Source: Hysterangium stoloniferum
Lineage: Eukaryota > Basidiomycota > Agaricomycetes > Hysterangiales > Hysterangiaceae
Reading direction: 5' to 3'
Length of the DNA: 64,000 nucleotides
Assembly (NCBI GenBank): GCA_015178975.1
Contig: WHVD01000251.1
Location: 26,364 to 90,363 of the forward strand
Shown: positions 1,381 to 64,000 of the stretch, piece after piece
How the letters are laid out: every line of letters starts with the position of its first letter
How positions within the stretch are numbered: the first letter of the stretch is position 1
Notes under the pieces: model-generated
The model's input: the letters and a program-made list of their open reading frames with translations, nothing else
What the model was told of the DNA's origin: nothing
Database searches by the model: none
Translations under genes and position numbers: made by a program

Positions 1381-2311
1381 TCAATCTACTTTTATAGGGC
1401 TATTCTTTTGCCCAACTTCAGTTAACTCTTGTTGGGCTTCTACCAGCTCCCTAGGGACTCTGTCCTCATCCTCCTCAGGCTCCTTGGAACTCCCAACCTG
1501 GGGCTCCAAATACACGTACCCACCGTACTCTGCCAAGAATGCCCAGAACTCCCTGGAGCATCTCCACCATGGTCCTCTGTATCCGGTTGCTCTCTTCAAG
1601 CAACTGGTTTTGGGCCTCTATGTATTCCCACAGCTATCCACCCCAAAATGTCCTCCAGGCCCCCGGGCCTGTCTGAGCACCCCATTTCCTATGCCATGGA
1701 CCCTGTGGGCTTGTGAACCAGTGAGCACCTCGCTTTGAGGTGCACACATGGCCAACAGCCTGGTCCCCACCCAGACTCAGTAAAATTCTGTGTTCCAGTT
1801 GTTACAGCTGGAATACCACAGGTCGTTCTTTGCCTCCAGGTGGACTGGAGCCATTTTCCTTGTTTTCTGTTAGTGTGGTCAGTACCTGGACCCAAGACTT
1901 ACCTTTTGGGGGCTCTCTAGCTCCCCTCAGACTCCAACTCAGCTTCCACTGCTTTGTGCTAAAAAAGCAAAGTTAGTAAAGTCAAATGTGAGAATCATTG
2001 GGACTTACCTTTCCCATGGCAACCATGGACCTCCCTGCAGCTGCCTTGGCATGTTCTGCAGCAACCCATGCTGCCTCCTCATCTCTCTTTCTCTGCTCCT
2101 CAGCCTCCTTCTCTGCAGCCAGTGCTGCCTGGTACTCCCTCTCCAAGTCCTCCTCAGCCTCTTTGGCTTTCTTCTCTGCTTCCTCCCTTTGTCAATGCTG
2201 CTCCCCCCACTGCACCAAGATTTGAGCAGCAGTGAGTGGAGCCCAATATGGGGAGCCCATGGAAGGTTCAGCACTGGGGATTAGCCTGCAAGGCATCAGT
2301 TTTGGACCCAT
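1381..2311 (-). pseudogene. Antisense accessory gene copy (G0)
   Basis: Decayed copy of the opposite-strand gene seen intact at 57083-58065. The minus strand shows the start region (MGPK-like, ATG at 2309-2311), a coiled-coil rich in Glu/Arg/Ala (2005-2274), the second half of the cysteine cluster (CWPCVHLKARCSLVH, within 1689-1895) and the conserved end EFWAFLAEYGGYV...SPIKVD with a stop at 1381. Frames are broken between the pieces and some of the first-half cysteines are lost. A TATA-like stretch (minus strand, near 2362-2370) matches the intact copy's promoter. Confidence 0.8.
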
Positions 2312-13042: not shown

Positions 13043-13225
13043 TCATTCTATATTTATAGGGCTATGCTTCTGTCCACTTTCATTAAACTCCTTTTGGAGT
13101 TCAACCAGCTCCTTGGGGACCCTGTCCTCATCCCTGAGCTCCTTGGAACTCCTGACCTGGGGCTCTGTATATATATACCTGCCATACTCTGCCAAGAACC
13201 CCCAGAATTCCCTGTGGAGTCCCTG
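13043..13225 (-). pseudogene. Antisense accessory gene, 3' end (G3)
   Basis: The reverse strand matches the C-terminal third of the accessory protein (EFWGFLAEYG-like through the final residues). The segment ends sharply near 13225. The missing upstream part is found at 14561-14998 in the opposite orientation. Confidence 0.7.
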
Positions 13226-13869
13226 GAGAGTCTCCTGTTAGAGTATGATATTACAGCTCTTACATAGTCTATGATGTTCCCTATATTTTTCTGATATTTG
13301 TAGTATTTTTCCCAGCACTGTAGGTGCAGTATTGAGTGAGTTACCTAGTAAGGTAAGTGATGTGTAGGTGCTTAGATAAGCACCCTGTAGCATACTCCGC
13401 TGTGGGTGTGGGAAAGTCTCCTTAATGTTTACTTTCCTCACACTCACAGGGAGGATAACCCAAAACTTTAAAAGTTATTTATCCACTAAAGTATATATAT
13501 TTATATTGTTTGTTGTAAAATTAATATTTAATCAAATTCAGTCTATCAGATAATATTCTGGAGAATAAGGAAATATTAATATTTATCTTGTATCTGACAA
13601 AAGTTAGTCAAACAAACATATATAGATTATCCTTTTGGGGATAAATTCCACAACAAGGATTGGTTGGCCAGATAGTTCTGGTTAACTTAACCAAATAAAT
13701 TTTAATTATATGAACTACATTTGAAAGTTTGTATAATATACAAGAGAATGCATCTCATCCCAAAGCTTAAGTCATAACCCAAATAATTTTGGTTAACTAT
13801 AATGTTTGTGGACATTTTAAAAGTCATGGAGATACTAGAGAATGTATTTTATCCCAAAAATTAGGTAAC
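13226..13869. other. AT-rich insert, no gene
   Basis: Not retrotransposon-like. Contains the repeat shared with 4416-4521 (13443-13541). It separates the two halves of the rearranged G3 3' region. Confidence 0.55.
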
Positions 13870-14476
13870 AACCCAGGTTGAACAGTTGATAGGTGGGGAG
13901 ACCAGTTGGAAAGCTCACGGGCTCTGATGAGGTTGAAAGTGTTGTGTTTCAAAGATGAGAGATGGGGATGGAGCAGGATATATGCTAAGTAACTGGAGAA
14001 CTTAGTTGATTTTCTGACCAGATTGTATGTACAACATTAGCTAGGCTATATAGACTGTGGAATGTATGCAATACCAAATCCAGTAATAATGAAGATCAAA
14101 ACAAGTAATCATGAAACGAGACAAGTAAACACCAGACTAGGTGTTAAGGACAGAACAGAATGGGAGTGGGGTGCAAAACATGACAGGTCATTTGACCATA
14201 ACAGGAACAGAGCTCAGTTAGAGAGCTGACAGGTTGTCCAGGCAGAGTCTGGTGAACTGGTACTTGGGACAGAGTCAGATATAGACTGGTTGACATGTGC
14301 AGGTCCCAGTGGGTACAGCAGTTGACTGTACTTGGGTAACATATAGATGGTCAGGTGCATATAAGGCAGGGTCTGGATGCTGGTGGGTTTTCTGGTTCAC
14401 TGTAAACTGGTATAGAGAGTCAGGTGCATGTATGTAGGATGTGATCCAGAGCCTGGTGGGTTTTCCAGTCCTAACA
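13870..14476 (-). repeat. G-type LTR, U3-R part, inverted (G3)
   Basis: Minus-oriented LTR lacking its U5 end. The right end CCTAACA at 14476 is followed by the polypurine tract complement (14477-14489). R begins GGTCAGAAAAT, as in G2. The missing U5 portion matches 15200-15366 on the plus strand. Confidence 0.82.
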
Positions 14477-14560
14477 GTACCCTCCCTTTAAGGCTGTGAA
14501 TGCCACAGGGAAGGTATGTCCCAGCAATTCACATAGTCAACTTTACTGACTCTGCTTTTT

Positions 14561-14998
14561 AGTGCAAAGTGGTAGAGGTCAAGTCAGAGTTTGAGGGGGA
14601 GCTGGAGAGCCCTCAAAAGGCAAGTAGCAGGTCCACAGGAGTGTCTGAGACTGACCAAGTCAACAGAAGGCAAGGAAGATGGCTCCAGTCTGCTTGGAAG
14701 CAAGAAATGACCTGTGGTATTCCAGTTGTAATGACCAGAACACAGACTGTTACTGGAAGTCCAGGTGGGGACCAGGCTGTTGGCCATGTGCACACCTCAA
14801 AGTGAGGTGCTCACTGGTTCACAAGCCCATGGGGTCCATGGCACAGGAAGTGAATGGCTCAGCAGACAGGCCTGGGGCCTTGGAGGAAGTTTTGGGGCAA
14901 ATAGCCATGGGCATAGAGGCCCAGAACTGGTTGCTTGAAGAGAGCAACTGGGTGCAGGGCACCATGGTGGAGATGTTGAAACAGTTGAATAACTCTTG
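14561..14998 (+). pseudogene. Antisense accessory gene, exons 2-3 part (G3)
   Basis: Plus-strand remnant: exon 2 (GAGSEFEGELESPQ-like acidic stretch, about 14569-14620), an intron whose donor GT is now GC, then MAPVCLEARND and the cysteine cluster (SSCNDQNTDC ... CWPCAHLKVRC), and the linker up to MVEMLKQLNN, where homology stops. Five of the six cluster cysteines remain (the first is Tyr). Exon 1 is deleted between the polypurine tract and 14510. Confidence 0.8.
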
Positions 14999-45219: not shown

Positions 45220-46182
45220 TCAATCTACATTTATAGGGCTATGCTTTTGCCCAACTTCATTAAACTCCTTTTGGAGTTCTACCAGCTCCCTGGGGACCCT
45301 GTCCTCATCCTCCCTGGGCTCCTCGGAACTCCCAACCTGTGGTTCCGAATACATGTACCCACCATACACCACCAAGAATACCCAGAATTCCCCATGGAGT
45401 CCCTGGAGCATCTCTACCACAGTCCCCTGCATCTGGTTGCTCTCTTCAAGCAACTGGTTCTGGGCCTCTATGCCTATGGCTATCCACCCCAAAACATCCT
45501 CCAAGCCCCCAGGCCTGTCTGAGCAACCTGATTCTTGTGCCACAGACCCTGTGAGCTCATGAACCAGTGAGCACCTCACTTTGAGGTGCACACATGGCCA
45601 ACAGCCCAGTCCCCACCTGGACTTCTGGTAACAGTCTGTGTTCCAGTCATTGCAACCAGAACACTGCAGGTCGTTCTTTGCCTTCAGGCTGACTGGAGCC
45701 ATTGTCCTTGCTTCCTGTTAGTGTGGTCAGTACCCAGACATTTCCATGGACCTGCCACTTATCCTTTGAGGGCTCTCAGCCTCTCCCTTGGACTCCGACT
45801 CAGCTTCTACCACCTTGCATTAGAAACCAAAAAGTCAGTAAGGATCGATTAGGCAAATTGTTGGGACTTAGCTTTCCCACGGCAACCACAGACCTCTCCG
45901 CAGCTGCCTTGGCATGCTCCATGCAACCTGTGCTGCCTCCTCCTCATCCTTTTTCCTCTGCTCCTCAGCCTCCTTCTCCACAACCAGTGCCACCTAGTAC
46001 TCCCTCTCTAAGTCCTCCTCAGCCTCTTTGGCCTTCTTCTCCACTTCCTCTCTTTGTCAATGCTGCTCCTCCCACTGTGCCAAGATTTGGGCAGCAGTGA
46101 GTGGAGCCTGATATGGGGAGCCTGTCGAGGGCCCAGCAGTGGTGGTTGGTCTGTGAGGCATTGGTTTTGGTCATTGGATCAT
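45220..46182 (-). pseudogene. Antisense accessory gene copy (G1)
   Basis: Best-preserved old copy of the accessory gene. Exon 3 (45714-45220) is open over about 160 codons, keeps all six cluster cysteines (CSGCNDWNTDC ... CWPCVHLKVRC) and ends SPINVD. Exon 2 lies near 45770-45830 with its donor mutated to GA. Exon 1 runs from an ATG at 46182 through a coiled-coil region broken by frameshifts. A TATA box (minus, near 46222-46232) is at the same distance as in the intact gene. Confidence 0.82.
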
Positions 46183-56054: not shown

Positions 56055-56873
56055 TGTTAGGATACACACTCAGGCCGGGTTTCCGGAGAAACCCGCGGGA
56101 TATCCGGTAGGACTTGGCTTCAGCTTATAGGCTGCGCCCTTGCTAGATCGTATTGTCCAATTTCAGACAGGCGGACGGGAATCCCAGGGAGTCCGGGTGG
56201 GGGTTCGTAGGTTGTGAGTCGTAGGTTGTGAGTCGTGAGTCGTGAATCGAGATAGTAGGGAGAGATAGATGCGCCGGAGCCCGTGGGCTCCGACTAGTGC
56301 GAGCGGTCTGATAAGAGTAGGTTTTAGAGAGGAAAATGTATTAGATTACTGGGGGGAATCTAAGCTAATTTTCTGACTGGATTGTATGTACAACATCTGC
56401 CAGTTTATATAGACCGTGGAATGCATGACATACCGAATCCAGTAATAATGAGACGAAACAAGCAAAACATGAAACGGGAATAGTAAACACCAAATTGGTG
56501 TTAGGAACGGGACGGAACGGAGCGGAGTCCGAATCGTGACAAAGCATATCCCATAACGGGAAACGGAGCGGGAGCGGAGTCCTAAATCGTGACAGGTCAT
56601 TTGACTAAAACGGGAACGGGGCTCGATTAGAGCGGTGACGGGATTCTAAGCGGGGACCGGTGACTGATGCGTGGGACGAAGACGGACATAGATAGAGACG
56701 GGGTCCGGGGGAAGTCCGGTGACTGATATGTGTCTTAATGAGGTCGAACGTAACGAGTCTTGACGTAACGGAGTCCGGGCGGGAAATCCTATAAACAGAC
56801 GATTGGTGCTTGTAGCACGTGGGGGCGTACGAGTTAGTGCCCGGAGTCCGGCGGGATTTGTCCGGTCGTAACA
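56055..56873 (-). repeat. 3' LTR of G4
   Basis: 819 bp, plus strand TGTTAGGATACAC...GGTCGTAACA. Contains two perfect short hairpins, GGGTTTC-CGGA-GAAACCC (56078-56095) and GGAGCCC-GT-GGGCTCC (about 56276-56291), and between them the U5 module (56108-56135). Confidence 0.95.
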
Positions 56874-56886
56874 GTATCCTCCCTTT
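56874..56886 (-). promoter_or_regulatory. Polypurine tract of G4
   Basis: The minus strand AAAGGGAGGATAC abuts the LTR. Confidence 0.85.
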
Positions 56887-57023
56887 ATGCCGAAGTCCCA
56901 AAGAGGCTCTAGACCTAAATAAGGTTCTTGTTGGCTACGCGCATGTGTCAAAAGTCATGTCGGTTACACGTATATGTCAAAGAGTCATGTGATCTGGAAG
57001 GTAAGGTTCAAACGCGACGAGCC

Positions 57024-57032
57024 TATATAAAA
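57024..57032 (+). promoter_or_regulatory. TATA box of the antisense accessory gene
   Basis: TATATAAAA lies 59 bases before the accessory ATG and 150 bases inside the element from the LTR. The same motif at the same distance is kept in G0 and G1, both heavily decayed elsewhere. Confidence 0.6.
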
Positions 57033-57082
57033 AATTGAAAAATAGAAATTTCTTCTTCTTTATTACCCCCATCTTCGTCACC

Positions 57083-58065
57083 ATGGGACCAAAACCGACA
57101 CCACGCAAGCCAATGCCGACAGCAGGGCCCTCCACGGGCACTCCGTATCGGGCGCCGTGGACGGCGGCCCAATTGTTGGCGCGGCGAGAAGAGCAGCGCC
57201 AGCTTCGTGAAGCAGCAGAGAGAGAGGCAAGGGAGGCTGAGGAGGCCCTGGACAGAGAGTACCAGGAAGCATTGGCCGCGGAGGAAGAGGCCGCAAAGGA
57301 GAGGGAACGTGAGGCGGAGGAGGCTGCACGAGTGGCCGCAGAGAACGCCCGGGTGGCTGCGGAGAAAGCCCGGTTGGCCGCGGAGAGGGCCGCCATTGTT
57401 GCGGGAAAAGTAAGTCCCAATTTCACTTATCGAACTTTACTGACTTGTGATTTTCAGCGCAAAGCGACAGAGGTGGAGTCCGAGTCCGAGGGGGAGCCAG
57501 AGAGCCCCCAAAAGGTAGGCCTCATGTCCATGGAATACCCGCGGAAAACTGACCATATCAACAGAAGGCAAGGAAGGTGGCGCCAGTCCGTCTTCCGACG
57601 CGGAACGAGCCGCGGTGTTCCGGTTGCAACGACCGGAACACGGAATGCAACCGAAAGGCCGGCCAGGGGCCGGGATGCTATCAATGCACGCACCTCAAGG
57701 CGAGGTGCTCGCTTGTGCACGAGCAGGCCACGGGATCCGGGGCGCGAGACATAAGCGGGACAGACGGGTTGTCCGGGTTGGACGAGGTCCTTGGACGGAT
57801 CGCCGAGGGCATCGAGGCCCAAAACGAGTTGCTCCGGAAGAGCAACAAGGTCCAAATTGTGGTGGCAAAGGAGCTGTCCAGACTCTGCGAGGAGTTTTGG
57901 AAGTTCCTGGCGGAGTATGGCGGCTATGTCTTTGAAGAGCCGCAAGTCGGGAGTTCCGAGGATGCCAGATCGGATGAGGACGGGGTTGCCGCGGAGGTCG
58001 CGGAGCTCCCTGAGGAGGTAGCTGAGGCAGAGGGGAAAAAACATAGTCCCATAAATGTAGACTGA
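57083..58065 (+). CDS. Antisense accessory protein of gypsy: coiled coil plus Zn2Cys6-like cluster
   Basis: Encoded opposite to gag-pol, between pol and the 3' LTR. Three exons (57083-57409, 57458-57514, 57565-58065) joined at phase 0 give 294 codons; introns are GTAAGT...TTTCAG (48 nt) and GTAGGC...CAACAG (50 nt). Residues about 35-107 are Glu/Ala/Arg-rich coiled coil; exon 2 is acidic. Residues 146-176 (57616-57708) have cysteines spaced C-x2-C-x6-C-x9-C-x2-C-x6-C, matching the fungal Zn2Cys6 rule, with Lys/Arg before the last Cys. The C-terminal third (EFWKFLAEYGGYVFEEPQV) is conserved in old copies. AATAAA follows at 58079. Introns persist because the retrotransposed RNA is the other strand. 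A DNA- or chromatin-binding regulator is inferred, not shown; the cluster could instead bind nucleic acid or only stabilise the fold. Confidence 0.8.
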
Positions 58066-58268
58066 AAAGTAATATAGAAATAAAAGTAATTGAACATAAA
58101 AGTAAAGCGTGAAAAACATAAAAAATAGAAGTCAAAGCCAAAGTCCGCGGAGAGTCCGCTTAAAGACTTGACAAGACATGTCAGAACCTGTAAAAGCAAA
58201 GAGAGACATAGGGCGACAGGGAATAGTGAAAATGAGTCCAAACGTAACACGGGGTCCGCGGAGTGCGG

Positions 58269-60254
58269 TCAGAGAGACGATAATGGTCCAGGTTTGAGTG
58301 GGTAAGCTGTATGAAAGTCAGTAACGATTTCCGTGGCATTACCGAGTTCCGTGGCCAAAATCCATGAGGTTTCTTCATCGGTGCCCTCGTAACCCGCCCA
58401 CTTGACCAAGTAAAGCAGTTTACAAGTGCGTCGACGCTTGTCAATTTTTGAATCTAAAATCTGAGAGATTTCAAACTCGGGTTCTCCGTCAATGACGACA
58501 GGAGGAGGCGGAGATTGCACGCGATCCGGGATAGTGTTAGCAGTACAAGGTTCTAGCATAGAGACATGAAATACCGGGTGTACCGCGCGCATGCTATCCG
58601 GAAGCCGTAGAGTCCAAGAAACTGAACCTACTTGTGCAATAATTTCAAAGGGACCTAAATATTTTTCAGCAAGCTTCTTTGATGGACGGATAGTCCGGAA
58701 GAATTGAGCTTTGACATAAACACGGTCGCCTATCTTGAAGTTGGGTGGCGGGATCCGGTGTTTGTCCGCTGAATGTTGGTATTGCTCTTGGGCGGACAGT
58801 ATTGCAGTCCGGAGTTCCTCGTGGAGCTCGTGGAGGTCCGTGGTGAACTCTTGAGCACGAACAGAGGCGAGATTTCGTTCTGGATGTACTGTAATATTTG
58901 GATTATATCCTTTATTTGCAAAGAACGGGGAAACGCCAGTAGTGGCCGAGGGTGCATTGTTGTAAGCAAACTCTGCAAGTGGTAACAAGGTTTTCCAATT
59001 GTCCTGTTGATAGTTGCAATATACACGGAGGTATTGTTCCAATGTCTGGTTGACGCGTTCGGTTTGTCCGTCACCTTCCGGATGATGTCCGGACGTGAAA
59101 TGTAATGTCATGTCCAAGGATTTTCCGAGGGATCTAAAGAAGTGAGACACGAACTCTGATCCTCGATCGGAAGTCACGTGGGACGGAACTCCGTGCTTGG
59201 AAAATACGTGGATAATGAAAAGTTCCACTAACTGCACGGACGTAATTGTATCATAAGTAGGGATGAATATACCTTGTTTTGAGAATCTGTCAACAACGAC
59301 TAGAATAGCGGAAAAGCCTTCGGAATCCGGTAGGTGTTCAATGAAATCCATAGATATACAATTCCATGGGTGTTCCGGTACCGGGAGTTGTTTCAAAAGG
59401 CCGTATGGCTTGTGTCGCTGAGATTTCGAGCGGGGACAAGTAGTGCAAGATTTACAATAGTGCTTAACGAATCCACGGAGTCCGGGCCAAGTATATTCTC
59501 TTCTTATTAATGATAGAGTTTTGTTGTACCCGAAATGTCCTGAGAGTGGATGATCATGTTTGTATTGAAGGATCCTGAGGCGGAGGCCGTCGGAGTCCGG
59601 TACATAGATCCTATCGTCAAGTCTAATGAAACCATGTTGATCAAGAGACCACCGAGGTTGATCGGGGTCCACGGGATTGTCTAGATGAGCTTTAGTAACT
59701 GGGTCTAGCGGAATTGCCGATAGAATATCTTGATGTAACTTTTCGATATCCATAATGATAATTCCATGGACAATGGGATTGATGAGGAAAGTTGCGCGGA
59801 CTGATGCGGTAAGTTGTTGATTCGTGAAAATAGGTTTCAGGTTGTGTGGATTTACCGTTGCATAGTCGTTGCTCCCCTCTTTAGGATAGACGTCCCATCG
59901 TCTAGTTAAAGCGTCGGGTTTGCCGCCGAGATGGCCAGGTCGAAAACGGATAATCATGTTGAAGGCAGAGAGATATTCAGACCAGCGGGCCTGCCGACGG
60001 GTCAAGAGTTTTGTGGTAGAAAAGTATTCCAGGTTTTTGTGATCTGTTACAACGTCAATAGGAGCTCCTGAACCTTCCAAATAGTGTCGCCACGCTTTGA
60101 AAGCTGAAAAGATTGCCAGAAGTTCTTTATCATGAACGTCGTAGTTGAGCTCTGCTCCGGTAAAAGTCCGGGACAGAAAAGCCACGGGGTGGACTTCTCC
60201 GTCGGAGTCCTGGATAGAGAGAATGGCTCCAAGTGCATAGTCGGAGGCGTCCAT
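58269..60254 (-). CDS. Gypsy pol C-terminal part: RNase H, integrase, chromodomain (G4)
   Basis: 661 open codons. RNase H starts at DASDYALGAILSIQDSD and includes NYDVHDKELLAIFSAFKAW. Integrase: zinc-binding HDHPLSGH...CKSCTTC, then catalytic Asp in SMDFIEH, Asp in VTSDRGSEF and Glu in GQTERVNQTL (35 residues between the last two, the DD35E rule). The C-terminal domain carries KLAEKYLGPFEI and a chromodomain (CKLLYLVKWAGYEGTDEETS). It ends PLSSL. It belongs in one polyprotein with the upstream RT; one extra A in a run near 60312 (A7, where G1 has A6) separates them. The gene ends 204 bases from the accessory stop, tail to tail. Confidence 0.93.
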   Translation of the reverse strand: MDASDYALGAILSIQDSDGEVHPVAFLSRTFTGAELNYDVHDKELLAIFSAFKAWRHYLEGSGAPIDVVTDHKNLEYFSTTKLLTRRQARWSEYLSAFNMIIRFRPGHLGGKPDALTRRWDVYPKEGSNDYATVNPHNLKPIFTNQQLTASVRATFLINPIVHGIIIMDIEKLHQDILSAIPLDPVTKAHLDNPVDPDQPRWSLDQHGFIRLDDRIYVPDSDGLRLRILQYKHDHPLSGHFGYNKTLSLIRREYTWPGLRGFVKHYCKSCTTCPRSKSQRHKPYGLLKQLPVPEHPWNCISMDFIEHLPDSEGFSAILVVVDRFSKQGIFIPTYDTITSVQLVELFIIHVFSKHGVPSHVTSDRGSEFVSHFFRSLGKSLDMTLHFTSGHHPEGDGQTERVNQTLEQYLRVYCNYQQDNWKTLLPLAEFAYNNAPSATTGVSPFFANKGYNPNITVHPERNLASVRAQEFTTDLHELHEELRTAILSAQEQYQHSADKHRIPPPNFKIGDRVYVKAQFFRTIRPSKKLAEKYLGPFEIIAQVGSVSWTLRLPDSMRAVHPVFHVSMLEPCTANTIPDRVQSPPPPVVIDGEPEFEISQILDSKIDKRRRTCKLLYLVKWAGYEGTDEETSWILATELGNATEIVTDFHTAYPLKPGPLSSL

Positions 60255-60255
60255 T

Positions 60256-62000
60256 TCAACAATGAGCGGGAAGTCCGGTTTCCAATGCGACAGAATAGGA
60301 GCTGTGGAAAAAGAATTTTTTTAAAAGATTGAAAGCTTTTTGACACTTATCGTTAAAATTCCACGGAGTACCCTTACGCGTAAGACGGGTAAGGGGTACC
60401 GTGATGTCGGAATATCCACGGATAAAACGTCTGTAAAAATTGGCAAAGCCGAGGAAGGATTGTATATCTTTAACTTTTCGGGGTTCGGGCCAATCTTTGA
60501 TGACTTGTACTTTAGTTTCGTCCATGCGGAGTCCATCGGGTCCCATCATGAAACCTAGGTATTCCACGGAGTCCGTGTCAAAAGTACATTTTTTACCATT
60601 TGCGAATAAACCATGTTGTCTGAGCCTCCGGAGAACCTCACGGACTTGTTTGTCATGTTCCGCGGGATTCTCGGAGTAGATAAGAATGTCGTCCAAGTAA
60701 ACAATGACGCATACATCGAGCATGTCGGAGAAAATGTCGTTGATAAAATGCTGAAAAACAGACGGGGCATTAGTGAGTCCAAAAGGGATGACCAACCACT
60801 CGAAGGCCCCATAGCGGGTTCTAAAAGTGGTTTTCCATTCATCGCCCGCGGCAATCCGGACCAAATGATAGGCGTGCTTGAGATCTATTTTGGTGTAAAT
60901 CCGGGCATTCCGCGGAGCATCGAGCAGGTCAGATATAAGTGGGAGTGGATATTTGTCCTTTTTGGTGACAGCATTGAGTCCTCTAAAATCAACACATAGT
61001 CGAAGGGATCCATCTTTTTTTCTGACAAACAAAACAGGTGCTCCAAAAGGAGACTTTGAGGGTCGAATAAAGCCTATGGACAAATGTTCATCCAGGAAAT
61101 CACGGATTGCGGATAGTTCCGTGGACAAAAGTGGGTAAATATGTCCTAGGGGTGGCTGGGCGCCATCTTCAAGATCGATTTTTAAGTCGTATTCTCTGTG
61201 AGGCGGAAGCCGGTCAGCTTTTCGCTTGCTAAAAACATCCGCGAAGTCATGGTATTTCTCCGGGACGCCTTCTAGATCAGCAGCTTGCTCAGATTCGGAT
61301 ACTGGGGTTGAGAAACGTCCAGTTGCTTCATCAATTTTTAAGTTGATAGTGAACGCCTGGGACCCATCCATTTTTGAAGCCCTAATAAAAGCTGCAGCAT
61401 TAATCAGAGAAATGGACGGAGGTGCCGTGGGTTCCGGGGAAGCTGTAGGTGCCGTAGGGATCACAGGAGTCCTCGAGACTGCAGGTGCCGGGAAGGCCAT
61501 GGGTGCCGTGGAGGCCGAGACAGGTGCAGTTTCCTCGGTCGCCACGGGAGTCCGGAATGTTATACTGTTAGCTATCCAGTCAATCAACGGATTGTAGCGG
61601 GTAAGCCAGTTATGTCCTAGAACCACCGAGCAACTTGAGTCTAACTGGGTCACATAGAAAGTGACCAATTGAGATGTTCCACAAGGGAAACTGATGGGTA
61701 AATCACAAGCTTGGGTAACAACCGAATTACTTGTGCCATCAAAGAGGCGGAGAGCGACGGGATTTATCGAATAAGTTGACAAAGAATTTTTTTGCGTGAA
61801 TTTTGTATCTAAAAAACAATGAGTCGAGCCGGAATCTATGAGAGCTGAAAAAACGAATTTCGGGATCATATTAGACATAAGTTTAATGAAAAATGAATCA
61901 GAATGTGAAAGAGCGGATGCGTTGAGGCGAGTGAACTCTTGAATGCACGGAGAGGCAATGCAACCCCTAACCCGCGCGGAGTCCGCGGGGTTGCTTACTC
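60256..62000 (-). CDS. Gypsy pol N-terminal part: protease and RT (G4)
   Basis: Protease has the aspartic motif ALIDSGSTHCFLD soon after MSNMIPKF (ATG at 61878). In-frame codons extend upstream to the gag overlap. The [14 protein letters not shown] block follows. RT: LCVDFRGLNAVTKKD, IYTKIDLKHAYHL, IPFGLTNAPSVFQHF and catalytic VYLDDILIYS. The connection domain follows (FANFYRRFIRGYS). The frame is lost after NLLKK at about 60312. The frame is -1 relative to gag. Confidence 0.92.
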
Positions 62001-63285
62001 TTTTTTCGAATCGGCAGCCGGTTTATCCTTCGACGGGGTTTCCGTGGAGGCCTTGGCTGATCGACCCTTTGAAGAGTTTGCTTTTGCCAGCGGACATTCC
62101 GGGACTCGATGACCGGGTTTCCCGCACAAGAGACAGAGGTTGTTGTCCATACGACGTTGTCTTTCTTGTGGAGTTAATTTGCCATCAGGTCCGAGTTTGC
62201 CTGAGAGGTCGGGTTTTCCGGCTTGCTTGCCGGACTGTTGACCCTTGTTGTTGTCCTTATTGTCCTTATTGTTGTTGTTGTTCGAAGACTTTTTATCGTT
62301 CTTCTTGTCGGATTGCGTGGAGTTCTGGTTGCTGGTTGACGAATTGGTGTTATTGTTTTTGTCCTTGGACTTGTTTATTTTGTCCGCGGACGTCTCGCGG
62401 GCAACTTCCGCGCGACATTCCCAATAACGTGCATCCGCGTTTTGAGCTTTGAGGCGCATACGGGACAGGGTTTTTGGCTTGCCATCTTCTCCTTTCGAGA
62501 CTTCGTCTTTAAGGCGGGATCGGCAGACCGGCGTAGAATTGGTGGCGGAGAGCGGGATCGCCCCACTGACAACGAGCTGCAAGATTATTGAATTGGACGA
62601 TGTAGTCCGTGATGCGCTGCGTGTCCTTCATACGAAGATTTGTGAGACTATTCTCGGCTTCTCCTGTCGGGTCATACGGGCCGAAGTTGGTTTCAAGCTC
62701 CTCAACAAAAGCTTCCCAATTTTCAAGCCAGAGCGGCTCTTCCTCGGTAATCCCGCTAAAAGCCGGTTCGAACCATTTCAACGCAGATCCCGACAAATAT
62801 GAAAGTGCATAGTTGACTTTTCGGGAGTCCGTGGAGAAATGCAGTGGCGCGATCGCAGAAATTGAAGCGACATTGCATGAGGAAAGTAGAGAGTTTGTTT
62901 GGGTTGGAACCGTGAAGGGTTCCGGAGCATTGACTTTTGACCGTGGAGGTTCTTGTTCCTTTCTTTTTCGTTCTTCTAGCAGGTGCGTCATGAATTTATC
63001 TATAGTACCTGCTAAAAACTCAGAAGTAGGATCCCTCGTGTGCGGTCGTTGAAAGAGGCGGAGGATTTTCAGGAGGGATTTCGACACCTTTGCCCTTGTC
63101 GGGGGCCACGGAATCGTCCTCGCGCTCGGATTCGTCCAGGTCTTCTGGGATTTCTTCGATGCGGGCTTCTTCCATGGGTTCCGACTGGTTCGCAAGCGTC
63201 TGACTGGTATACAGAGTTAACGGGGAATGAAGAGTCGAGGGTCCAGGTATTGATGACTGTGCGCGTGTACTTCTTCTTGTGGCAT
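61995..63285 (-). pseudogene. Gag of G4, frame-broken
   Basis: The start codon at 63285 follows the PBS by a leader of only about 36 nt. Family members read MPPRRK or MSPRRK here, but G4 lacks one C, so the frame shifts at once. An acidic N-terminal part, the capsid-like core (LSYLSGSALKWFEPAFSG ... YIVQFNNLAARCQWG), a basic Lys/Asn-rich linker and one zinc knuckle CLLCGKPGHRVPEC follow. Breaks lie near 63035 and 62518 (one extra base in CTGCCGATCCCG). Stop at 61995. G1 is unbroken at the 62518 site. Confidence 0.87.
62001..62006 (-). promoter_or_regulatory. Candidate -1 frameshift site between gag and pol
   Basis: The minus strand reads TCG AAA AAA GAG TAA in gag. Slipping back one base on AAA AAA gives AGA GTA AGC..., which is the open pol frame. 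G2 keeps A7 here. The slippery site is not perfect (the base before is G). Confidence 0.5.
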
Positions 63286-63308
63286 AATGAAAACAATCTG
63301 CGAGTATT

Positions 63309-63321
63309 AGTCAGAAAATAC
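63309..63321 (-). promoter_or_regulatory. Self-priming PBS of G4
   Basis: The minus strand reads GTATTTTCTGACT directly after the LTR. ATTTTCTGACT is the exact complement of AGTCAGAAAAT at the predicted RNA start (63643-63633). Confidence 0.75.
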
Positions 63322-64000
63322 TGTTAGGATACACACTCAGGCCGGGTTTCCGGAGAAACCCGCGGGATATCCGGTAGGACTTGCTTCAGCTTATAGCTGC
63401 GCCCTTGCTAGATCGTATTGTCCAATTTCAGACAGGCGGACGGGAATCCCAGGGAGTCCGGGTGGGGGTTCGTAGGTTGTGAGTCGTAGGTTGTGAGTCG
63501 TGAGTCGTGAATCGAGATAGTACGGGAGAGATAGATGCGCCGGAGCCCGTGGCTCCGACTAGTGCGAGCGGTCTGATAAGAGTAGGTTTTAGAGAGGAAA
63601 ATGTATTAGATTACTGGGGGGAATCTAAGCTAATTTTCTGACTGGATTGTATGTACAACATCTGCCAGTTTATATAGACCGTGGAATGCATGACATACCG
63701 AATCCAGTAATAATGAGACGAAACAAGCAAAACATAAAACGGGAATAGTAAACACCAAATTGGTGTTAGGAACGGGACGGAACGGAGCGGAGTCCGAATC
63801 GTGACAAAGCATAACCCATAACGGGAAACGGAGCGGGAGCGGAGTCCTAAATCGTGACAGGTCATTTGACTAAAACGGGAACGGGGCTCGATTAGAGCGG
63901 TGACGGGATTCTAAGCGGTCCGGTGACTGATGCGTGGGACGAAGACGGACATAGACAGAGACGGGGTCCGGGGAAGTCCGGTGACTGATATGTGTCTTAA
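63322..64000 (-). repeat. 5' LTR of G4 (incomplete)
   Basis: First 679 bases of the plus-strand LTR sequence. Differs from the left LTR mainly by single-base gaps in short runs (for example GGACTTGCTTC against GGACTTGGCTTC). Confidence 0.95.
63633..63676 (-). promoter_or_regulatory. LTR promoter: TATA and RNA start of G4
   Basis: The minus strand has TATATAA at 63676-63670, and 33 bases on begins AGTCAGAAAAT at 63643, the inferred RNA 5' end. The same spacing holds in G1 (30974 and 31007). Confidence 0.65.

Follow-up and report, generated by a model that had tools for sequence, protein, structure and literature searches.

The window analysed here is a stretch of 64,000 nucleotides from Hysterangium stoloniferum, an ectomycorrhizal basidiomycete, and the genome examined with it comprises 111 Mb in 554 contigs. 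The upper end of the window is occupied by a chromodomain Ty3/gypsy element whose gag and pol are on the minus strand. Protease, reverse transcriptase, RNase H, integrase and a C-terminal chromodomain were found in this order, as in Ty3/gypsy chromoviruses. A further gene, on the plus strand and pointing towards pol, is located between the 3′ LTR and the stop of pol (58269). The features of the element and of this antisense gene are the following.

56055–56873, minus strand: 3′ LTR of 819 nt, TG..CA, from self-alignment with the 5′ LTR; upper end read from the sequence
56874–56886, minus strand: putative polypurine-tract-like stretch, so named from its position next to the 3′ LTR; conserved in the alignment
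56874–57082, plus strand: putative promoter and 5′ leader of the antisense gene, from conservation; TATA box at 57024–57032
57083–57409, plus strand: exon 1, codons 1–109, with a charged Ala/Glu/Arg-rich stretch
57410–57457, plus strand: intron 1, 48 nt, GTAAGT..CTGAC..TTTCAG
57458–57514, plus strand: exon 2, codons 110–128, acidic, with an NLS-like stretch at its end
57515–57564, plus strand: intron 2, 50 nt, GT..CTGAC..AACAG
57565–58065, plus strand: exon 3, codons 129–294 and the stop codon
57616–57708, plus strand: six-cysteine cluster, C146–C176, Zn2Cys6-like with its halves in swapped order
57769–57918, plus strand: long helix predicted by AlphaFold2, residues 197–246, a possible dimerisation helix
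58269–60254, minus strand: pol, RNase H, integrase and chromodomain, from the ORF list and Pfam profiles; pol stop at 58269
60256–61878, minus strand: pol, protease and reverse transcriptase, from the ORF list and Pfam profiles
61995–63195, minus strand: gag region, two overlapping ORFs, with a CCHC-type stretch seen by eye
63322–64000, minus strand: 5′ LTR, from self-alignment, incomplete where the contig ends

The overlapping parts of the two LTRs differ at only 4 of 632 aligned bases, so the insertion in the window is young. In other copies with enough flank, the LTR match mostly ends about 205–210 bases before the ATG of the antisense gene; an LTR match at this distance was not seen in L012 or L064. 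Inspection by eye of 63304–63321, next to the 5′ LTR, revealed none of the usual tRNA primer-binding sites; the GTATT..AATAC found there could form a hairpin. The spacer that separates the antisense gene from pol (58180–58268) contains a non-coding stretch which can still be aligned in older copies and has changed little there. Read on the pol strand, this stretch includes CTTTTACAG, which resembles a splice acceptor.

An earlier sequence-only reading of the window had proposed a three-exon gene of 294 codons at 57083–58065, opposite to gag-pol. Our analysis reproduced this exon structure, with two GT-AG introns in phase 0. Residues 31–106 of the encoded protein are charged and rich in Ala, Glu and Arg and make up a charged helix, and the stretch SPQKKARK around residue 130 resembles, by eye, a nuclear localisation signal.

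When the genome was searched in six frames with the protein, at least 201 matches to the antisense gene were obtained. We aligned 84 copies, namely 29 loci from the genome search, 52 further loci and three in the window; L013, which is the window copy again, was left out of all counts. The copies fetched were the best-scoring matches and 12 divergent ones chosen by hand. An intact spliced ORF of 288–297 codons was present in 50 of the 84 copies (47 of them distinct), a proportion that is not the genome-wide intact fraction because the copies were fetched by best score with the 12 divergent ones hand-picked. The most divergent fetched locus had 56% protein identity, and two old copies in the window had 34–49%. 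Distances between copies of the gene correlated with those of the pol tail (0.90) and of the LTR (0.89) over 820 pairs from 41 copies, which indicates that the antisense gene travels with the element. The gene adjoined the pol tail in 34 of the 40 matches listed from 1937 first-look candidates; of the remaining six, one lies near a contig start and five are unchecked.

The sequence-only reading had also pointed to relatives of the gene elsewhere in the window. Alignment bore out those at 45220–46182 and 1381–2311. The copy described as split, at 13043–14998, is not one collinear gene, as its two parts lie on opposite strands.

1381–2311, minus strand: decayed related copy, lacking two of the six cysteines, frame broken
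13043–13342, minus strand: fragment, 3′ end of the gene, from alignment
14566–14988, plus strand: fragment, exons 2 and 3 with a broken frame, from alignment
45220–46182, minus strand: decayed related copy, exon 3 open, all six cysteines kept

In the copy at 45220–46182, intron 1 has lost its donor and its acceptor, and intron 2 its donor. All six cysteines had been said to survive in the old copy, but 1381–2311 reads Y at position 146 and F at position 156.

All four splice dinucleotides were retained in 82 of the 84 aligned copies, the exceptions being L023, from which intron 1 is deleted, and the decayed copy at 45220. Counted singly, GT and AG of intron 1 were each found in 82 of 84 copies, and those of intron 2 in 83 and 84, respectively. 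A branch-like CTRAY or TTGAC was present in intron 1 of 83 of the 84. Divergence per site in intron 1 was lowest at the donor (0.006), followed by the branch (0.026), the acceptor (0.033) and the interior (0.104). For intron 2 the values were 0.092 for the six donor bases, 0.037 for the branch, 0.006 for the acceptor and 0.163 for the interior; its donor hexamer is thus variable outside the GT. The intron interiors change length out of phase among copies. Where kept, intron 1 measures 48–72 nt, its length differing by T-runs and further indels, and intron 2 ranges from 36 to 51 nt. Long T-runs were noted in intron 1 of L075, L052 and L035, in which the intron reaches up to 72 nt. The unspliced frame was open in none of the 50 intact copies (median stop at codon 122). 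Removal of intron 1 alone likewise left it open in none of them, and removal of intron 2 alone left it open in 8. This comparative evidence for splicing, which is of another kind than a transcript, is strong and shows that both introns are spliceosomal and real.

A dN/dS ratio near 1 across young copies would have spoken against the gene. Over the 50 intact copies the ratio was 0.219 by the Nei-Gojobori method; copy pairs share ancestry and are not independent, which applies to all pairwise dN/dS values given here. By dS bin, the intact copies gave 0.46 below a dS of 0.01 and 0.16–0.30 above it. When decayed copies were included (L023 and L077 being dropped from these rates), the ratio was 0.50 at dS below 0.01 and 0.19–0.30 above, with 0.21 at dS 0.4–1 and 0.19 at dS 1–3. 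Decayed copies push dN/dS towards 1. The values of 0.46–0.50 in the youngest pairs show no sign of constraint and, as expected, fit changes that arose after insertion. Codon bootstrapping over 11 intact representatives gave a range of 0.19–0.31. Other frames of the same DNA had ratios of 1.66, 1.33, 1.56 and 1.63, and the reverse frame that shares wobble positions had 0.277. These comparisons strongly support purifying selection on the antisense product during the multiplication of the family.

Where the gene was intact (44 copies), dN/dS was 0.15–0.17 for the pol tail and 0.18–0.28 for the gene. Among pairs with a gene dS above 0.3, the pol tail had 0.38 and 0.51, the gene 0.21 and 0.19. The pol-tail set includes the gap-rich L018, L051 and W1, and we do not claim that the gene outlasts pol in old copies.

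The region upstream of the gene was aligned in 61 of the 84 copies, those with a short flank and eight named ones being left out. The TATA box claimed by the sequence-only reading lies at 57024–57032, and TATAWA was present in all 61. The leader (56875–57082, 208 bp) exceeds the LTR in conservation. Compared with LTR sites outside CpG, its mean identity was 0.897 versus 0.822 in seven older copies and 0.981 versus 0.966 in 43 intact copies. The polypurine tract could account for part of this conservation; the TATA box is about 140 bp away from the tract. Two similar TGTCAAA..GTCATGT stretches were seen in the leader at 56943–56992, and they may be a repeated element of the antisense promoter. 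The AATAAA, likewise claimed before, was read from the sequence at 58079–58084 on the plus strand, after the stop codon. Of the 69 copies with downstream flank, 67 have it no more than 60 nt from the stop, to be read against a chance level at which 48% of base-shuffled 120-nt stretches contain it.

Zn2Cys6 clusters have the spacing C-x2-C-x6-C-x5-12-C-x2-C-x6-8-C. The antisense protein has C-x2-C-x6-C-x9-C-x2-C-x6-C, and the fit to this pattern noted in the sequence-only reading was confirmed. Cysteines 146, 149, 156, 166, 169 and 176 were kept in 81, 82, 82, 83, 82 and 83 of 83 copies (L023 left out of this count), while a seventh, C236, varies among copies. In the intact representatives, the cluster was the segment with the lowest pN/pS (0.13); its pN was 0.039 as against 0.042–0.085 in the other segments, a contrast partly due to high pS. 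In 18 divergent lineages the cluster had a pN/pS of 0.21, and only the last ten residues, which end in SPINVD, were lower (0.12).

Against the Pfam profile Zn_clus (PF00172), the window protein scored 8.0 bits, the cut-off being 21, with its first cysteine triad at profile positions 16–31. Sub-threshold matches were found in five of seven family members in the first profile set and in eight of ten exon-3 proteins of other copies (6.9 to 20.8 bits). None of these seven and ten partly overlapping sequences reached the 21-bit cut-off. Among the best stretches of the eight matching proteins, the first triad fell on profile positions 16–32 six times and the second triad on 2–16 twice, and none was a collinear match. 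When half-fragments were searched alone, four of eight matched in swapped order (two first triads at 16–32, two second triads at 2–18), and the other four, including both halves from the window, had no Zn_clus match. As a control, the halves of Gal4 matched positions 1–18 and 16–39 as expected. The swapped matches are consistent, but they count as one observation because the copies are related. The Zn2Cys6 reading has the support of the spacing, of the conserved cysteines and of the sub-threshold profile matches, but the cut-off was not reached and the halves match in swapped order. The cluster may be called Zn2Cys6-like, perhaps permuted, as distinct from a proven member of Zn_clus. One speculation is that it derives from a host protein with tandem zinc clusters, where the second half of one cluster precedes the first half of the next. 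The genome contains 42 Zn_clus matches. A host frame with several tandem Zn2Cys6-type clusters was seen at L002:1171–1776 (C115), and similar close-set Zn_clus matches occur in C56.

AlphaFold2 modelling of exon 3 from two sequences predicted with confidence a helix of 50 residues at 197–246, the block pLDDT values being 81–95 over exon-3 residues 71–120. A single-sequence model rendered the region of residues 197–246 as two helices. Block pLDDT in the cysteine region (exon-3 residues 1–60) was 32–43, with no confident fold. The only matches from a PDB profile search were of helices, to talin (E 0.2 and 2.4), and NCBIfam gave only matches far below cut-off, which for the window protein fell in the charged helix. 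Pfam matches to TAF4, AvrD, SUKH_5 and Zn_ribbon_LapB were weak and at chance level, and we rejected them. Protein searches for homologues with the region, the alignment and the helix-masked sequence returned only H. stoloniferum; such searches need shared five-residue words, and the alignment and helix-masked ones scored about 8000 candidates each.

Other elements, one of them fungal, are already known to carry an antisense gene between pol and the 3′ LTR. PMC7264820 reviews such ORFs (aORF-3R) in plant elements and catalogues antisense accessory genes of LTR retrotransposons as being of function not known; among them, Grande gene23 is described with an upstream promoter and nuclear localisation. 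According to PMC11963269, Retand elements characteristically have ORFs of this kind, most of them TRP28. The window copy lies inside the LTRs, between pol and the 3′ LTR and in antisense, as an aORF-3R does, and the gene is conserved (dN/dS 0.22) and found in most family copies (34 of the 40 matches listed). Place, orientation and presence in most family copies are thus shared with Grande gene23, RIRE2, Retand and PvRetro13 as these sources describe them, but the plant proteins have other domains (TRP28, SMC). The words 'intron' and 'zinc finger' occur 0 times each in the main text of PMC7264820 and PMC11963269.

The fungal case is brtn, which PMC7264820 cites in Boty of Botrytis and Sclerotinia and PMC8365987 treats as an added ORF of BcGypsy1; PMC5987419 mentions a Monilinia transcript that resembles BRTN. 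In these accounts brtn of Boty-like Ty3/gypsy elements is likewise an antisense gene added to a fungal gypsy element, but its host is an ascomycete and ours a basidiomycete, and the likeness is taken from the descriptions in the citing papers. HBZ of HTLV-1 and APH-2/3/4 are also antisense genes of an integrated element with a spliced transcript (PMC10186651). The same source gives HBZ and APH-2 as nuclear and HBZ as lowering LTR expression. HBZ differs in being a bZIP protein of an animal retrovirus with its promoter inside the 3′ LTR; the likeness is one of layout and logic, and no homology is claimed. Its splicing is known from a transcript; that of the Hysterangium gene is deduced from sequence evolution. 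With the fungal Zn2Cys6 proteins of the Gal4 type (PF00172) the antisense protein shares six cysteines at permitted spacing, a linker and a predicted long helix, but it stays below the Pfam cut-off, and its first triad matches the second half of the profile and its second triad the first.

The word 'antisense' occurs 0 times in the main text of the fungal LTR-element surveys PMC3248453 and PMC2864245, and no antisense gene was found in passages of a rotifer paper (PMC5408684). Among the open-licence papers listed in the literature searches, none pointed in its title or abstract opening to an intron-bearing or zinc-cluster antisense gene of a fungal LTR retrotransposon. What is new here are the selectively maintained introns, the occurrence in a basidiomycete and the zinc cluster.

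As sequence evolution shows, the chromodomain Ty3/gypsy family carries a third, protein-coding gene, which occupies the opposite strand in the interval from pol to the 3′ LTR. Reverse transcription copies sense RNA, in which antisense introns go unrecognised. The introns survive retrotransposition because they are wrongly oriented in the sense genomic RNA and hence not removed, and their persistence in this way means that the protein requires transcription of an integrated copy and nuclear splicing. A spliced mRNA can have no other origin than antisense transcription of an integrated copy in the nucleus, most simply from a promoter between the LTR and the ATG. The product would be a nuclear, nucleic-acid-binding zinc-cluster protein, probably dimeric, that may tune the expression, silencing or integration of its own element as a nuclear accessory factor; this would be its most economical role, one that resembles HBZ and the plant aORF-3R proteins in layout and logic. 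That this is a real, spliced and selected protein gene seems to us almost certain. That its product is a nuclear protein binding nucleic acids is likely, and for its regulating the element the balance is even. We lean slightly towards the whole explanation, a selected and spliced antisense gene for a zinc-cluster nuclear factor that tunes its own element. A bolder form of it is possible but doubtful: the element might have built its own transcription-factor gene, with a circularly permuted Zn2Cys6 cluster and a dimerisation helix. The product, made only after nuclear splicing and therefore from integrated copies and never from genomic RNA, would act back on the LTRs and so be the fungal equivalent of HBZ, constructed from a zinc cluster of fungal type.

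Two other explanations would do without a selected protein from the plus strand. The antisense RNA itself could be the product, regulatory or an siRNA precursor, with the ORF incidental to it, and PMC7264820 proposes that antisense transcripts of such elements feed silencing. As the sole explanation this is contradicted by the frame-specific dN/dS of 0.22, the near-invariant cysteines and the 50 intact ORFs in 84 copies, and we hold it to be highly improbable; the RNA may have an additional role beside the protein. The other supposes that the conserved frame belongs to a sense accessory ORF on the gag-pol strand and that the plus-strand gene is its shadow. Sense-strand ORFs of 221 and 149 aa do overlap the antisense gene, the wobble-sharing reverse frame has the low ratio of 0.277, and in 42 of the 50 intact copies exon 3 can be read through without a stop in one reverse frame. 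In 32 decayed copies the reverse frame also has fewer stops in exon 1 (0.34 versus 1.06), but in exon 3 of the same 32 it has a mean of 2.16 stops and the plus frame 1.16. The plus frame has the lower ratio (0.219) and, by the definition of intact, is open in 50 of 50. The intron signals, by which the plus strand is settled as the coding one, the conserved ATG and the cysteine pattern all lie on that strand, so a sense reading is disfavoured and, in our view, barely credible.

Where the antisense protein itself is accepted, its role may still be other than that of a transcriptional regulator. It could act in the particle or the pre-integration complex, in nuclear import or in guiding integration together with the chromodomain. 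The zinc cluster, the basic stretch and the helices would suit general binding of nucleic acids or chromatin, and nuclear accessory roles have been proposed for plant aORF-3R proteins (PMC7264820). A particle protein would, however, come from an antisense mRNA apart from gag-pol, and the antisense protein is without a retroviral CCHC knuckle; we regard this role as unlikely rather than remote. It could also be a captured host zinc-cluster gene that competes with a host factor or mimics it as a decoy, for instance to counter silencing. The genome's many Zn_clus matches (42) and the inter-domain spacing of the tandem clusters in L002, which resembles the swapped unit, would agree with such an origin, but the protein searches turned up no host relative beyond the element, and this reading is improbable.

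The antisense gene of this family, read as a nuclear zinc-cluster factor acting on its own element, is a concrete and testable candidate for a retrotransposon-encoded regulator. The family is young and abundant and combines protein-level selection with two retained introns, a conserved upstream region and a zinc-cluster-related product. The case illustrates how a retroelement can hold on to introns. Should the swapped cluster prove to bind zinc and DNA, the Zn2Cys6 domain would gain a new form.

The palindrome CGG-N3-CCG was considered as a site for self-binding. It occurs six times in the 3′ LTR versus 0.32 expected from shuffles, pol being enriched as well (8 versus 0.65), and an unbiased scan placed it in the top two of the recurrent palindromes, with a z of 6.6 as compared with at most 5.8 in shuffles. 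At the six sites, identity in 43 intact copies was 0.960 versus 0.963 for the remainder of the LTR at CpG positions and 0.936 versus 0.966 at the others; in seven older copies it was 0.619 versus 0.588 and 0.886 versus 0.822, respectively. With no LTR specificity and equivocal conservation, the palindrome was not used as evidence. A single palindromic sequence, CGGAGTCCG, is the commonest 9-mer of 56131–64000, where it occurs eight times in LTR and pol alike.
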